The notes under the pieces were generated by a model, which saw only the letters and a program-made list of their open reading frames with translations, did no database searches and had not been told where the DNA came from. DNA of 64,000 nucleotides from the NCBI GenBank assembly GCA_946411695.1, contig CAMKEX010000001.1:23060-87059 (forward strand), read 5' to 3'. The stretch comes from an uncultured Lachnospiraceae bacterium. GTDB lineage: Bacteria; Bacillota; Clostridia; Lachnospirales; Lachnospiraceae. The position numbers were made by a program, and so were the translations under genes. Below, piece by piece: positions 19,673 to 27,142 of this stretch (positions are counted from its first letter, which is position 1; every line of letters begins with the position of its first letter).

Positions 19673-22600
19673 TTGATTTCAAAAGACTATACGCTGGGAA
19701 TAGATATCGGATCCACGACCGTCAAAATCGCCATCCTGGACCCGTCCTGTAATATCATGTTTGCCGACTACCGCAGACACCACGCAGACATCCAGGGAAC
19801 ACTCCGCGCCCTTGTTCAGGATGCCCACAAACAGCTGGGAGACATCACTGTGCACCCTGTCATCACGGGTTCCGGAGGCCTGACGCTTGCGACCCATCTT
19901 CAGGTCCCTTTTGTCCAGGAAGTTGTCTCCGTCTCCACTGCCCTTGAGAGGATCGCACCCAAGACTGACGTCGCGATCGAACTGGGCGGAGAGGATGCCA
20001 AGATCATCTACTTCGAAAACGGCAGTATCGAACAGCGGATGAACGGCATCTGCGCCGGCGGCACCGGTTCCTTTATCGATCAGATGGCCAGCCTTCTGCA
20101 GACTGATGCGGCAGGCCTGAACCGCTATGCCCGCGGATACCGCTCTCTTTATACCATCGCCGCCCGCTGCGGCGTTTTCGCCAAATCCGACATTCAGCCC
20201 CTGATCAATGAGGGCGCGACCAAGGAAGACCTGGCAGCTTCGATCTTCCAGGCGGTCGTCAACCAGACCATCAGCGGTCTGGCCTGCGGAAAGCCCATTC
20301 GGGGACATGTTGCCTTCCTGGGCGGTCCTCTGCATTTCCTTCCGGAGCTGAAGGCAGCCTTTGTGCGCACATTAAATCTCGATGACGAGCACACCATCGA
20401 TGTGGACAACTCCCACCTGTTCGCAGCCATGGGCAGTGCAATGAACGCACAGGAGGACAATTCCGCCCTCCTCTCCGAAATGGCAGACCGCCTGTCCGGA
20501 AAACTGCACATGGAATTTGAGATCGGCAGGATGGATCCGCTCTTCTCGTCACAGGAGGAATACGACGAGTTCTGCCACCGCCACGAAAAGGCCCGTGTGC
20601 AGCGCGCTGACCTGACCGAATACCGCGGAAACTGCTTCCTCGGTATCGATGCCGGTTCCACGACTACCAAGCTGGCCCTGGTCGGCGAGGACGGCTCTCT
20701 TCTCTACTCTTTTTACAGCAACAATAACGGCAGCCCTGTCAGGACTGCCATTTCGTCGATCGCGGAAATCCACCGCCTGCTTCCCGAAGGGGCAAAGATC
20801 GTGCGCAGCTGCTCCACCGGTTACGGCGAGGCCCTGCTCAAGGCGGCCTTCCTTCTGGATGAAGGTGAGGTGGAGACCATCGCCCATTACTATGCGGCGG
20901 CTTTCTTCGATCCCGAAGTCGACTGCATCCTCGATATCGGCGGACAGGACATGAAATGCATCCGCATCAAGAACCATGCGGTGGACAATGTCCTGCTCAA
21001 CGAGGCCTGCTCCTCGGGCTGCGGCTCCTTTATCGAGACATTTGCCAAATCGCTTGATTTTTCCGTACAGGATTTCGCAAAAGCCGCCCTGTTTGCAAAG
21101 CATCCCATCGATCTGGGAACGCGCTGCACCGTATTTATGAATTCCCGCGTCAAACAGGCGCAGAAGGAAGGAGCGGATGTCTCCGACATCTCCGCAGGCC
21201 TTGCATACTCGGTCATCAAAAATGCCCTCTTCAAGGTCATCAAGGTCTCCGATGCCTCCCAGCTGGGCAGAAATATCGTCGTCCAGGGCGGCACCTTCTA
21301 TAATGACGCCGTTCTGCGCAGTGTGGAGACCATCTCCGGCGGGCAGGTCACACGCCCTGACATCGCCGGCATTATGGGCGCCTTCGGCGCGGCTCTGATC
21401 GCCCGCGAGCGCTATACCGGCAGACAGAAGACGACCATGCTCTCCTTCGACGAAATCGAAAACCTCCGGTTTGAGACAACTCTGACCACCTGCGGGCGCT
21501 GCACCAACAACTGCCGCCTGACCATCAATCATTTCCTGCGCGGCGAGAGTGAGAATATGACGGACAATGCCTCTGTGTTTGAGGAATCCGTTCCCGTGAG
21601 CGGCGAAGGCAGTCACCGCAGAAAGGAATCCGGCCTTGCCGCCCGCGCCCTGGAGACAGGACGTGAAGTGGCGGACCGTGCCGCAAAAGCCATTGAGGAA
21701 AGCGCCATCGGAGAAGCCGCCGGACGCGCCAGAGATTCCGCCTTCGAGACCGCCGGGCGCGCGGCCAAAGCCATCGAGGAAAGCGCCATCGGCGGTGCCG
21801 CCGGACGCGCCAGAGATTCCGCTTTCGAGACCGCCGGACGCGCGGCCAAAGCCATCGAGGAAAGCGCCATCGGAGAGGCCGCTTCCAGAGCTCTTGAATC
21901 TGCAGGAAAGGCAAAGGACTCCGCCCTTGAGACTGCCGGACGCGCCAAAGATACCGCCCTCGACAGGGGGAACAAAAAGTCCAGGACCGGTAAAGAGGAG
22001 AAGGAAGACAGGAAACTCAGAGAGGACAAGAAGGATAAGGCCGCCTCCGCGAAACGCGGCCATGCCGCGCCGGCTCAGGAGCGCCTGTTTATCTCCGGCA
22101 ACCGCTGCGAGCGGGGTCTGGGCAAGGAAGCGGCACAGAACAATATGCCCAACCTCTATAAATATAAGCTGGGAAGGATATTCGGCTATCGTCCCCTCTC
22201 TGCCAGTGAGGCACACCGCGGAACGGTCGGAATCCCCCGTGTACTGAATATGTACGAGGACTACCCCTTCTGGGCGACCTTCTTCACAAAGCTCGGTTAC
22301 CGCGTGGTCCTCTCGCCTCTGTCCACACACAGGATCTACGAGATGGGAATTGAATCCATCCCCAGCGAGTCCGCGTGCTACCCTGCCAAGATTGCTCACG
22401 GTCATGTGATGTGGCTCATTGAAAAGGGCGTGGACTTCATCTTCTACCCCTCCCTGTTCTATGAGCGCCCGGAGTTTGCCTCCTCGGACAACCACTACAA
22501 CTGCCCGATCGTCACCTCCTATCCGGAGAACATCCGCAATAACGTCGAGGAGATCACGGAAGGAAAGATCAGGTTCCGCAACCCCTTCATGGCTTTCACC

Positions 22601-24679
22601 AGCGTGCGCACCATCACCGACGCCATGGAAAAGGAATTCGCCGGAGAGATTCCCGCCGAGGAAATCCGCCAGGCCTGCATCGCCGGCTGGCAGGAACTCG
22701 AACAGTCCCGCAGAGATATCCGCAAAAAGGGAGAGGAAGTCCTGAAATTCATGGAGGAAAACCATGTCAAGGGCATTGTCCTTGCAGGCCGTCCCTATCA
22801 TATTGACCCGGAGATCAACCACGGCATCCCGGAGATGATCACCTCCTACGGTATAGCTGTACTCTCCGAGGACTCCATCTCCCACCTGTCCACACCGGAT
22901 CGTCCGATCACCGTCCTGGACCAGTGGATGTATCACTCCCGCCTGTATGCAGCCGCCAACTACGTGCGCCTGCGCGACGATCTGGAAATGATCCAGCTCA
23001 ACTCCTTCGGCTGCGGTATTGACGCCGTCACGACAGATCAGGTCAATGACATCCTGGCAGGCTCTGACAAGATCTACACCTGCCTCAAGATCGATGAGGT
23101 CAACAACCTGGGCAGCGCCCGCATCCGCGTCCGCTCCCTGATCGCCGCCATCCGCATCCGCGACCAGAAAAACACCAGGCGCAATATCCGGTCCACGGCG
23201 ATCAAGAAGGTGCCGTTTACTGTGGAGATGCGCAAAAACTACACCATCCTGTGTCCGCAGATGTCGCCGATCCATTTCGACCTTCTCGAACCTGCTGTGC
23301 GCGCCTGCGGCTACAATCTCGTGATCCTGCCCAACGACAACCGCAGGGCAGTCGATTTCGGCCTCAAGTACGTCAATAACGACGCCTGCTATCCGTCCCT
23401 CTTCGTCGTGGGACAGATCATGGAGGCTCTTGACTCCGGCAAATACGATCTGGACAGGACAGCGGTCCTGATGACCCAGACCGGCGGCGGCTGCCGCGCC
23501 TCCAACTACGTCGGCTTTATCCGCCGGGCACTGACAAAGGCAGGCATGGGCCAGATCCCTGTTGTCTCGGTCAATATGTCCGGCCTTGAAGAGAATCCTG
23601 GCTTCAAGCTCGATCTCAGACTCATCACCCGCGCGGCATATGCCGTTGTCTTCGGCGATGTCATGATGCGCTGCGTCTACCGCATACGCCCCTATGAACT
23701 CAAAAAGGGCAATGTAGAGGCCAAGCATCAGAAGTGGATCCGGATCTGCACCGACTTCCTGACAAAGACCAACGGCCTGAATCTTCCCAAGGTCCAGCGT
23801 CTTGCCATACAGATGATCCGGGATTTCGATTCCATCCCGATCCGCGAGGAGAGAAAGCCCCGCGTCGGTATCGTCGGCGAAATCCTTGTCAAATACGCTC
23901 CTGCAGCCAACAACTACCTGGTCGACCTCCTCGAACAGGAGGGCGCGGAGGCCACTGTCCCCGACCTGATGGGCTTTATGCTCTACTGCTTCTACAACCA
24001 GGTCTACAAGGCTGAACACCTGGGCACGAGCAAAAAGACCGCCAGAAAGAGCACACTCGGCATCCGTGCCATCGAAGCCGCGCTCAAGCCCATTTACAGG
24101 GCATACGAAAAGAGTGTCCACTTCGAGGCACCCGCCAGCATTTATGATCTCGTCAAATTCGCCGAGCCCATCGTTTCCATCGGCAACGAGACAGGCGAAG
24201 GATGGTTCCTCACCGGGGAGATGATCGAACTGATCAATGACGGAGTTGAAAATATCGTCTGTATCCAGCCTTTCGGCTGCCTGCCCAACCACGTAGTCGG
24301 CAAGGGCGTCATCAAGGCTATCCGCAGGGAATACCCTCTGGCCAATATTGCCGCCATCGACTATGATCCCGGCGCCAGCGAAGTCAATCAGCTCAACCGG
24401 ATCAAGCTGATGCTGGCTACTGCCCAGAAAAATCTGGAGAAGAAAAAGGCAGGCCTGATCCCCGGCACCGCTGCAGCCGCGGAAAATACTGCTGATGAGC
24501 GTGCTGCCATGGAGACCGCCCCCGAGATCGACAGTGAAAATGCTTCCATCGGCTGTGTCCCCGACACCACTTCCTCAGAGGAAAAGGCAGGTCATGCAGC
24601 CCGCAGCGGCAAAGCTTCCGGTCCTCTCGATTCCGGCCGCAGAGGCCGCGGGCTTTCCCGCCTCTTCCGCAGAAAATAA
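19673..24679 (+). CDS. Acyl-CoA dehydratase activase / 2-hydroxyglutaryl-CoA dehydratase-type fusion protein (1668 aa), TTG start
   Basis: Two BcrAD/BadFG ATPase modules (LGIDIGSTTVKIAI; LGIDAGSTTTKLALV), CGRCTNNC, DUF2229/HgdB-like C-terminal region; internal repeat insertion. Confidence 0.9.
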   Translation: MISKDYTLGIDIGSTTVKIAILDPSCNIMFADYRRHHADIQGTLRALVQDAHKQLGDITVHPVITGSGGLTLATHLQVPFVQEVVSVSTALERIAPKTDVAIELGGEDAKIIYFENGSIEQRMNGICAGGTGSFIDQMASLLQTDAAGLNRYARGYRSLYTIAARCGVFAKSDIQPLINEGATKEDLAASIFQAVVNQTISGLACGKPIRGHVAFLGGPLHFLPELKAAFVRTLNLDDEHTIDVDNSHLFAAMGSAMNAQEDNSALLSEMADRLSGKLHMEFEIGRMDPLFSSQEEYDEFCHRHEKARVQRADLTEYRGNCFLGIDAGSTTTKLALVGEDGSLLYSFYSNNNGSPVRTAISSIAEIHRLLPEGAKIVRSCSTGYGEALLKAAFLLDEGEVETIAHYYAAAFFDPEVDCILDIGGQDMKCIRIKNHAVDNVLLNEACSSGCGSFIETFAKSLDFSVQDFAKAALFAKHPIDLGTRCTVFMNSRVKQAQKEGADVSDISAGLAYSVIKNALFKVIKVSDASQLGRNIVVQGGTFYNDAVLRSVETISGGQVTRPDIAGIMGAFGAALIARERYTGRQKTTMLSFDEIENLRFETTLTTCGRCTNNCRLTINHFLRGESENMTDNASVFEESVPVSGEGSHRRKESGLAARALETGREVADRAAKAIEESAIGEAAGRARDSAFETAGRAAKAIEESAIGGAAGRARDSAFETAGRAAKAIEESAIGEAASRALESAGKAKDSALETAGRAKDTALDRGNKKSRTGKEEKEDRKLREDKKDKAASAKRGHAAPAQERLFISGNRCERGLGKEAAQNNMPNLYKYKLGRIFGYRPLSASEAHRGTVGIPRVLNMYEDYPFWATFFTKLGYRVVLSPLSTHRIYEMGIESIPSESACYPAKIAHGHVMWLIEKGVDFIFYPSLFYERPEFASSDNHYNCPIVTSYPENIRNNVEEITEGKIRFRNPFMAFTSVRTITDAMEKEFAGEIPAEEIRQACIAGWQELEQSRRDIRKKGEEVLKFMEENHVKGIVLAGRPYHIDPEINHGIPEMITSYGIAVLSEDSISHLSTPDRPITVLDQWMYHSRLYAAANYVRLRDDLEMIQLNSFGCGIDAVTTDQVNDILAGSDKIYTCLKIDEVNNLGSARIRVRSLIAAIRIRDQKNTRRNIRSTAIKKVPFTVEMRKNYTILCPQMSPIHFDLLEPAVRACGYNLVILPNDNRRAVDFGLKYVNNDACYPSLFVVGQIMEALDSGKYDLDRTAVLMTQTGGGCRASNYVGFIRRALTKAGMGQIPVVSVNMSGLEENPGFKLDLRLITRAAYAVVFGDVMMRCVYRIRPYELKKGNVEAKHQKWIRICTDFLTKTNGLNLPKVQRLAIQMIRDFDSIPIREERKPRVGIVGEILVKYAPAANNYLVDLLEQEGAEATVPDLMGFMLYCFYNQVYKAEHLGTSKKTARKSTLGIRAIEAALKPIYRAYEKSVHFEAPASIYDLVKFAEPIVSIGNETGEGWFLTGEMIELINDGVENIVCIQPFGCLPNHVVGKGVIKAIRREYPLANIAAIDYDPGASEVNQLNRIKLMLATAQKNLEKKKAGLIPGTAAAAENTADERAAMETAPEIDSENASIGCVPDTTSSEEKAGHAARSGKASGPLDSGRRGRGLSRLFRRK
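21679..21903 (+). repeat. In-frame 81-bp tandem repeat (~2.7 copies) inside the activase gene
   Basis: 27-aa unit GRAAKAIEESAIGEAAGRARDSAFETA repeated. Confidence 0.9.
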
Positions 24680-24806: not shown

Positions 24807-24846
24807 AAAAACTCCGGAATCAGTCATCTGAATCCGGAGTTTTTTA
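24807..24846 (+). terminator. Intrinsic terminator after the activase gene
   Basis: ACTCCGGA...TCCGGAGTTTTTT. Confidence 0.85.
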
Positions 24847-24903
24847 TATCATCTATATACAGATCTACGGCAAATATGGGATGTCCGGACTGTATTTTGC
24901 GCA

Positions 24904-24970
24904 GAAAAAAGGAAGAGTATTCATCTGCCGTCTTTTCCAACGGTCTTACTGCGACGAATACTCTTCCTTA
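24904..24970 (-). terminator. Intrinsic terminator of the orphan minus-strand transcript
   Basis: AAGGAAGAGTATTC...GAATACTCTTCCTT followed by TTTT on the minus strand. Confidence 0.85.
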
Positions 24971-25659
24971 GAAAACACCATCCAATGGACTTATCCTCCT
25001 TTTTGTCTGGCTTTCCGCTCTCTTTCCTCTTCATCTTTTGTACTGATTGTACTGTGATGTCCGCACTCAGATCTCCGCTGCACTCTCTGGTGCTTTCTCC
25101 GGATCTACAATCTGTTTCCTGAATTACTGGTCCCTTCGAAACTTACCTCTCAATCCCTTTCCTCTACTATCTGATCGATGCGATAATCCGAAAGAGGACT
25201 GTTCCATCCTGATTCCCATCCTGCATCTTTCCGGTTTCCGATTCCAGTTCCTGTCGGGTTTTTATTCGTCAGGTGAATTCATTCATCAGAGCTGTGATCT
25301 TTCAAAATATCCGATGCTGTGATTCATCACTTCTCTTTGTGTACTCAATTGCGGAACATATTCAATTGTAACTGATTGATGGAGCTTAGATTAAATGTTT
25401 CCGGTGGCATGTACCTACCTTTCTTCTTCTTTTTGTCCGTCCTCTGACTGCCTGTCGGGATGTCCGAAAAATATGGGAGAGACCGGCGGCTGTCTGCCTT
25501 CCTGATCTGATCCTGCGAAACTGCTCTTTGAAGCAGCCTCCTTACGGAAAGTCCTTTGAGACTGTCCGATCATTCGAAACTGTCTCCGCTGGCATCTGAA
25601 CTTATATAAAAGAAGATTGATCGGTGAGCTTCTCGTCACCTTTTCTTGAAGTACTTTAT
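24904..25659 (-). ncRNA. Candidate large (~755 nt) orphan non-coding transcript
   Basis: Perfect consensus promoter 25666-25694 (minus), terminator 24904-24970 (minus), no recognisable ORF between. Confidence 0.5.
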
Positions 25660-25665
25660 GTGATT

Positions 25666-25694
25666 ATTATAGCGACTAACCTTTATTTTGTCAA
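25666..25694 (-). promoter_or_regulatory. Perfect consensus housekeeping promoter
   Basis: Minus strand TTGACA-AAATAAAGGTTAGTCGC(17)-TATAAT, AT-rich upstream. Confidence 0.8.
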
Positions 25695-25840
25695 TTAATT
25701 AGCGTGAAAAATCTATTATTATCGGAATATTCAGTCATTTGTCTACAATTTCGATCCAATTCTCTGTAGGCGCGGAATCTCACAGACTGACATTCCCTGA
25801 CTCCACGATCCCTCTTTCAGAGGCTTAAACCAGTCAAAAA

Positions 25841-25869
25841 AACGGCACCGCCGTAAAGACGGTGCCGCT
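25841..25869 (-). terminator. Terminator downstream of glyA
   Basis: CGGCACCG...CGGTGCCG with T-run on the minus strand. Confidence 0.8.
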
Positions 25870-25903: not shown

Positions 25904-27142
25904 TCAGTCCAGGGGATACTTTGCCGTAATTCCGGCGATGATCGCCTTTGCGGGCTCGATGCCTGCTTCCCTGTCCCTGATGACAAGGGCAATGGCCTCT
26001 GCGACCTGGTCCATATCCTCTTCCTTGAGGCCGCGGGTTGTCGCAGCGGGAGATCCGAGACGGATACCGCTGGTAACAAAAGGAGAACGCTGCTCATTGG
26101 GGATGGTATTCTTGTTGGCTGTGATATGTGCCTCATCAAGCCACTTCTCGACTTCCTTACCGGTGAGATCCTGTTTTGTGAGGTCGATCAGCATCAGGTG
26201 GTTGTCTGTGCCGCCGGATACAATATCAACGCCTCTCTTCTTGAGGCCTTCGCAGAGTGCAGCCGCATTGTTGATGACCTGCTGCTGGTAAACCTTGAAG
26301 GAAGGATCGAGAGCTTCTTTGAAGCAGACAGCCTTGGCTGCGATCACATGTTCAAGAGGGCCGCCCTGGGTTCCGGGGAACACACACTTGTTGAAGTTGT
26401 ACTTCTTCGCTGTCTCTTCCATAGCCAGGATCAGTCCGCCTCTGGGGCCGCGCAGAGTCTTGTGGGTCGTAGTTGTCACAACATCTGCATAGGGGAAGGG
26501 ACTGGGATGAAGGCCGGCCACGACGAGACCTGCAATGTGGGCGATGTCAGCCATCAGGACTGCACCGCAGGCATCGGCTGCTTCGCGGAACTTCTTGAAA
26601 TCGATGGTTCTGCAGTAAGCGGAAGCGCCGGCGATGATCATCTTGGGCTTTGCTTCGATCGCGATCCGTTTGAGTTCGTCGTAATCGATAAAGCCGTTCT
26701 CATCTACGCCGTAAGGAACGATATTATAATAAGTACCGGAGATATTGGCAGCACTGCCGTGGGTAAGATGTCCGCCCTGATTGAGGTTCATGCCCATCAG
26801 AGTGTCGCCGGGCTTGAGAATGGCAAACTCTACCGCGAGATTGGCGGAAGCGCCGGAGTGAGGCTGTACGTTTGCATATGTGCACCCGAAAAGCTCTTTT
26901 GCGCGCTCGACTGCGATGGTCTCGACGACGTCGATCACCTGGCATCCGCCATAATAGCGCTTGCCGGAATAGCCTTCCGCATACTTGTTGGTAAGGGGAC
27001 TGCCCATGGCTGCCATAACGGCCTTGCTGGTCCAGTTTTCGGAGGCAATCAATTCTATATGATCGTTCTGGCGCTGAACTTCCTGCTCAATAGCTGCCGC
27101 AATATCGGGATCAACCTTTCTGACTTCCTCAATTGAATACAT
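25904..27142 (-). CDS. glyA: Serine hydroxymethyltransferase
   Basis: [58 protein letters not shown]. Confidence 0.97.

Follow-up and report, generated by a model that had tools for sequence, protein, structure and literature searches.

A previously uncatalogued RNA family concentrated in Lachnospiraceae, with ribosome-binding-site-like modules and a putative micro-ORF at its terminator

The Locus and Its Transcription Unit

The window analyzed here, a stretch of 64,000 nt from an uncultured Lachnospiraceae bacterium, carries on its minus strand a promoter and a terminator stem separated by ~690 nt without any credible long ORF, between glyA and a convergent gene encoding 1668 aa (table 1). 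The landmarks given for this region by the first-pass annotation were all recovered: the exact consensus promoter, the terminator hairpin with its T-run, the small hairpins GGTGA-N8-TCACC (25640–25623), GCAC-N6-GTGC (25093–25080), and GTAC-N5-GTAC (25052–25040), and the short repeats CAGTTTCG and CCCGACAGG, each present twice. In the consensus of nine sequences, the terminator stem (24969–24953/24925–24909) comprises 17 bp with zero non-pairing cells. The neighbors end independently, as had been noted, glyA at its own terminator and the convergent gene at a hairpin near 24807–24846. The convergent gene also contains, between its domains (approximately residues 650–790), a repetitive alanine-rich insert of AGRAAKAIEESAIG-type units.

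Table 1. Features of the RNA unit and of its two neighbors (window coordinates).
Feature	Position	Strand	Remarks
glyA, upstream neighbor	25904–27142	−	outside the RNA unit; own terminator at 25869–25841
Promoter TTGACA-N17-TATAAT	25666–25694	−	12/12 consensus; kept in same-genus copies and most relatives
5′ hairpin GGUGA/UCACC, GACGAGAAG in loop	25623–25640	−	consensus helix, mean pair probability 0.99
Internal RBS-like module AGAAGAAGAAAGGTAGGTACATGCCACCGGAAACAT	25395–25430	−	core GGTACATGCC at 25415–25406; degenerate, without conserved start codon
Covarying helix, 5′ strand GUGAUG	25325–25330	−	pairs with 25059–25054
Clade-specific insert domain	25060–25324	−	inside the GUGAUG/CAUCAC helix; internal helices with compensatory changes
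3′ strand CAUCAC and hairpin GUAC-AAUCA-GUAC	25040–25059	−	best conserved block
Shine–Dalgarno GGAGG of the micro-ORF	24995–24999	−	
Micro-ORF TTG-GAT-GGT-GTT-TTC-TAA (M-D-G-V-F)	24968–24985	−	start, acidic codon 2, and stop at terminator base kept in relatives
Terminator hairpin and T-run	24904–24969	−	17-bp consensus stem; conservation ends here
Convergent neighbor	19673–24679	+	outside the RNA unit; probable 2-hydroxyacyl-CoA dehydratase activator fusion, named by eye

BLASTN searches of same-genus genomes identified nine long copies, the window's own included, with 76–100% identity, as well as shorter conserved islands in many more genomes, and most same-genus copies sit between glyA and the convergent gene. 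Of 25 same-genus copies examined, 23 have TTGACA and a −10-like box at a spacing of 17–18 nt; in the other two, the spacing is 16 nt. Most long alignments to the window end at 25700–25767 on one side and at 24884–24909 on the other (that of L009 ends with its contig). Among eight aligned close relatives, conservation is confined between promoter and terminator, column conservation dropping from 0.89 to 0.46 once the latter is passed, and the promoter-to-terminator length varies from ~310 to 800 nt among copies. The comparison thus supports the segment from 25694 to 24904 (minus strand) as a putative sigma-A transcription unit of its own, one of a class of structured RNAs that is concentrated in Lachnospiraceae and not in Rfam. 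Judging from the promoter, the RNA may be abundant. The 74-aa GTG ORF (25639–25415) had been rightly dismissed, its frame shifting or meeting stops in relatives, and we rejected a 21-aa ATG ORF (MPPETF..., 25410–25345) whose frame is broken or start lost in relatives.

Rfam 15 gave no match at gathering score in the window, ROOL, GOLLD, OLE, raiA, and HEARO included; at relaxed E-values, the element region returned nothing credible, with chance-level scores only, and in 22 related loci the element matched no family either. These negative searches, together with the promoters in the genus, the sharp edges, and the covariation described below, give good support to a stand-alone structured RNA that is not in Rfam. 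A divergent tmRNA was rejected, as a tmRNA scores above cut-off elsewhere in the genome (G000:C42), and so was a divergent 6S RNA (a 6S-like partial match lies at G000:C253, E-value 3e-4, below cut-off, and most relatives have 6S-like matches). A phage or plasmid origin was likewise rejected, no DNA match being found. We found no description of such an RNA in the literature. Candidate structured RNAs from human microbiomes have been catalogued from HMP2 data (Fremin and Bhatt 2021; PMC8040213); the main text of this survey, to which the comparison applies, describes no such RNA, its supplementary tables being a possible home for a fragment.

A stand-alone promoter–terminator unit with conserved single-stranded blocks might suggest an ordinary small regulatory RNA that base pairs with mRNA targets. 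However, the conserved blocks contain no outstanding C-rich seed able to bind Shine–Dalgarno sequences, and we regard this explanation as very improbable.

Conserved Structure and a Reading Frame at the Terminator

Folded as a single sequence, the RNA lies 2.5 SD below shuffles. The GUGAUG/CAUCAC helix, tested on 25 distinct rows that were joined by hand from the two strands, a procedure that favors structure, has 97.6% of cells paired and changes on both sides in 9 of 10 pairs; none of 500 shuffles was as good, and slid controls collapse. From nine whole long forms, RNAalifold recovered this helix along with others that show compensatory pairs. The insert domain enclosed by the GUGAUG/CAUCAC helix, long in the window's clade, measures only ~30 nt in short forms, among them L046 and L064. 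The core of the RNA spans ~150–400 nt, and its expansion to 755 nt is clade specific. Hairpins whose loop contains GACGAGAA are present in 20 of 68 representatives. We also considered a hairpin that would always display the Shine–Dalgarno sequence and the start codon, of which several single cases are convincing; it was rejected because own pairs were no better than cross pairs family-wide (892 of 5000 permutations as good).

The unit had been described as having no credible ORF, which has to be corrected. A five-codon ORF beside the terminator (24985–24968), missed by the first-pass annotation, is conserved, and its start and stop codons are interchangeable. In each complete copy examined, GGAGG and a short spacer are followed by TTG, ATG, or GTG, then GAN (AAC in L024), and a stop; this stop usually comes after five codons and usually falls at the terminator base, which the stop codon of the window overlaps. 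Among 65 distinct modules, picked by a pattern requiring [ATG]TGGA, which in part predetermines the start and the GA of codon 2 but neither the positions nor the types of the stops, starts are TTG (53), ATG (11), and GTG (1), and stops TAA (26), TAG (21), and TGA (18); codon 2 is GAT, GAC, GAA, or GAG in 65/65, and a stop is reached in frame within 27 nt in 61/65, compared with 25 and 33 for the other frames. Identical peptides, for example, MDSIV, are encoded by differing synonymous codons. Such codon-level variation is the pattern of a translated ORF, and we infer that the micro-ORF is translated.

A conserved small ORF with its ribosome-binding site, within a structured RNA, is also the arrangement of the dual-function small RNAs SgrS, RNAIII, and SR1. 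The present ORF differs from theirs in having only about five codons, in being fixed at the terminator base, and in being preceded by start-less copies of its ribosome-binding site. The peptide itself, M-[D/E]-x-x-[V/I/F], could be the product, which would make the RNA a nanopeptide mRNA whose long 5′ region is regulatory; the coding-like variation of starts, stops, and synonymous codons agrees with this proposal, as do recurring peptides such as MDSIV and, in one genus, longer related peptides ending in YSV. However, past the acidic residue 2, the peptide is poorly conserved between clades (MDKAH, MDGVF, MDNEQQ), and a peptide gene needs no long covarying RNA structure upstream, which makes a nanopeptide mRNA unlikely.

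The very short ORF and the position of its stop codon at the terminator hairpin also recall leader peptides and attenuators, in which case the position of the ribosome on the micro-ORF would control in cis the terminator and the downstream gene. Besides the overlap of stop codon and terminator base, a same-strand gene comes next in several other genera. On the other hand, where such a gene follows, a TGTGnTATAAT-like extended −10 is seen by eye just past the hairpin, and comparison of the genus with other lineages revealed no conserved same-strand downstream gene. Because the downstream gene is convergent in this genus and varies between lineages elsewhere, we hold a cis-acting leader to be highly improbable. 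The same features, a stand-alone unit and the lack of a conserved downstream gene, separate the RNA both from leaders and from minigenes such as the one with a very short ORF described in axe-txe (PMC8708949).

Members and Distribution of the Family

The element had been called an orphan, but it belongs to a family-wide RNA class and has a second copy in its own genome, the divergent paralog L104 (G000:C8:14136–14332). This paralog lies upstream of an asparagine-synthetase-like gene; its micro-ORF reads MDKNS, and its two start-less modules (GGTACGGACC) are located far upstream. A conserved 20-mer was found at 42 loci in 85,462 species genomes; L037, L049, and L066 are chance matches, and the remaining loci come from genomes labeled as Lachnospiraceae, as unclassified Eubacteriales or Bacillota MAGs, as Kineothrix sp. 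MSJ-39, which has the short form (L046), and as Sarcina sp. DSM 11001, a named isolate that has the long form. A custom covariance model built on the 3′ domain of the RNA (R1), whose E-values are rough, matched 57 of the 61 genus genomes, many of which have two copies. In the order, it matched 72 of 392 genomes, of which 58 belong to the same family; at an E-value of 1e-4, it matched only 9 of 392 genomes of the class, 7 of the 9 in the family and 2 of the 9 rejected as resembling coding or unrelated sequence. Here as in the other counts of this analysis, family members are not independent, so that the numbers overstate the evidence; most of the genomes are MAGs. Weak covariance-model matches outside the family (L134–L137, L163, and L164) were rejected, most of them having the appearance of coding or unrelated sequence, and L121, in another family of the order, is the only outside match that looks genuine. 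The RNA appears to form a previously uncatalogued family found across Lachnospiraceae.

Two copies of the RNA stand in tandem, ~0.9 kb apart, at L159 (G432:C27:3669–4692). In several other genera (L046, L041, L052, and L106), the next gene is membrane anchored and GH3/NagZ-like in appearance, and the gene that follows the RNA in L118 resembles a polysaccharide deacetylase, both judged by eye.

Repeated Motifs and Possible Functions

Many copies have ribosome-binding-site-like modules upstream of the micro-ORF (consensus AGAAAGGAGGUACRGWCCAMCGRAAACRUAA), usually without a start codon; the ATG at the internal module of the window is not kept in relatives, and some short forms (L130 and L131) have a start codon in their upstream modules (MGR* and MGK*). 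GGTACRGWCC has 60 occurrences, spread over 40 of 68 representatives, and is found at none of 224 sampled ordinary gene starts. In 48 representatives, GTAC is observed 178 times against 40 expected, a 4.5-fold excess over shuffles, the other 4-nt palindromes tested reaching at most 1.7-fold; the sites recur both within and beyond the Shine–Dalgarno-like modules, and some related RNAs (L092, L100, and L116) have zero GUAC. Pairing with the 16S tail at −14 kcal/mol or better is predicted for 135 sites, where 43 were expected. The Shine–Dalgarno sequence of the micro-ORF itself accounts for part of this excess, which was computed with a tail taken from three relatives, the own genome giving no 16S tail match. 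At the W of GGUACRGWCC, A and U are about equally frequent, and 16S pairing is therefore not continued at this position. The smallest copies (L151 and L153) are little more than two modules, the micro-ORF, and the terminator.

Because the Shine–Dalgarno-like modules, the micro-ORF, and the terminator persist as the RNA shrinks, we prefer a trans-acting RNA whose decoy sites and single true start would engage ribosomes, a reading to which we give a probability of roughly 0.4. Members of the class combine a strong promoter, covarying helices, and repeated GUAC tetramers with zero to several, mostly start-less, modules and with a last module endowed with a real start codon and an ORF of about five codons (M-[D/E]-x-x-x) ending at the terminator base. 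In the proposed role, the internal modules would pair with the 3′ tail of 16S rRNA while being unable to start translation; at the last module, translation would start and then stop at once. In this way, the RNA might decoy or buffer 30S subunits, the alternative target being a factor bound to the ribosomes that initiate. The conserved unit and promoter, its sharp boundaries, the covariation, the micro-ORF, the motif counts, and the excess of 16S pairing all lend support to such a role. Against it stand the enrichment of GUAC outside Shine–Dalgarno-like contexts, which 16S pairing does not explain, the degenerate internal module of the window's own RNA, the break of pairing at W, the share of the micro-ORF's Shine–Dalgarno sequence in the pairing excess, and the GUAC-less relatives.

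The excess of GUAC outside the Shine–Dalgarno-like modules speaks for another explanation, a sponge for an RNA-binding protein that recognizes GUAC/GGUACRGWCC. Many copies of one short motif, in and out of the modules, would be expected of it, and the last site overlaps the Shine–Dalgarno sequence of the micro-ORF, as the site of a translational repressor would. CsrB/RsmZ-type sponges are likewise stand-alone and strongly promoted, with a repeated short motif and a final site resembling a ribosome-binding site, but theirs are GGA loops instead of GUAC/GGUACRGWCC, and a conserved micro-ORF is found here. CsrA (PF02599) is excluded as the partner, since 14 of 15 genus genomes, the window's own among them, lack it, so that the RNA would have to be a CsrB analog with another partner. 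Moreover, no regulon carrying the motif emerged: matches to GGUACRGWCC in the own genome are the RNA paralog and mostly coding sequence. On balance, a protein sponge appears rather doubtful.

An oligomer-forming structural or scaffold RNA, with GUAC palindromes as kissing contacts, would account for the large expandable insert domain, the many helices, and the palindrome enrichment. The ornate large RNAs (ROOL, GOLLD, OLE, raiA, and HEARO) are likewise large, structured, intergenic, and without a long ORF. However, the short forms of ~150–200 nt retain the modules and the micro-ORF and not the large fold, and the RNA departs from the ornate RNAs by its lack of an Rfam match, a core that shrinks to 150–400 nt, and the micro-ORF, so that a scaffold seems quite unlikely. 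To our knowledge, no known RNA combines a repeated motif, a small ORF, and large size, these features being known only singly.

Taken further, the preferred ribosome-engaging role would imply a natural class of ribosome-decoy RNAs, in which tandem start-less sites capture 30S subunits and one five-codon ORF ends on its own terminator, tuning the translation capacity of Lachnospiraceae; in this full form, the proposal is possible but tentative. Lachnospiraceae are major gut and rumen bacteria, and the absence from Rfam of an RNA class that is strongly promoted, often multi-copy, and present in many genera would leave a large hole in the picture of their regulation. Engagement of ribosomes would make the RNA an unusual route to global translation control. 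Since the five-codon ORF is fixed at the terminator, existing ribosome-profiling and RNA-seq methods could be used to test this.

L165 (G428:C71:28041 region) has about seven GGTACRGWCC modules in one RNA, followed by a micro-ORF MDESM. L120 (G415:C1:1404167 region), a probable relative, has three micro-ORFs preceded by Shine–Dalgarno sequences, MGIT, MKKGRGP, and MKLTEPML, the last one at the terminator. Finally, genus g26 has a different RNA (L105, L107, L109, and L116), without GUAC and with repeated GCGACGG-like stretches, located 30–70 kb from the GUAC-bearing RNA and ending in a 3′ module of the same kind, made of a Shine–Dalgarno sequence, TTG-GAA...stop, and a terminator.
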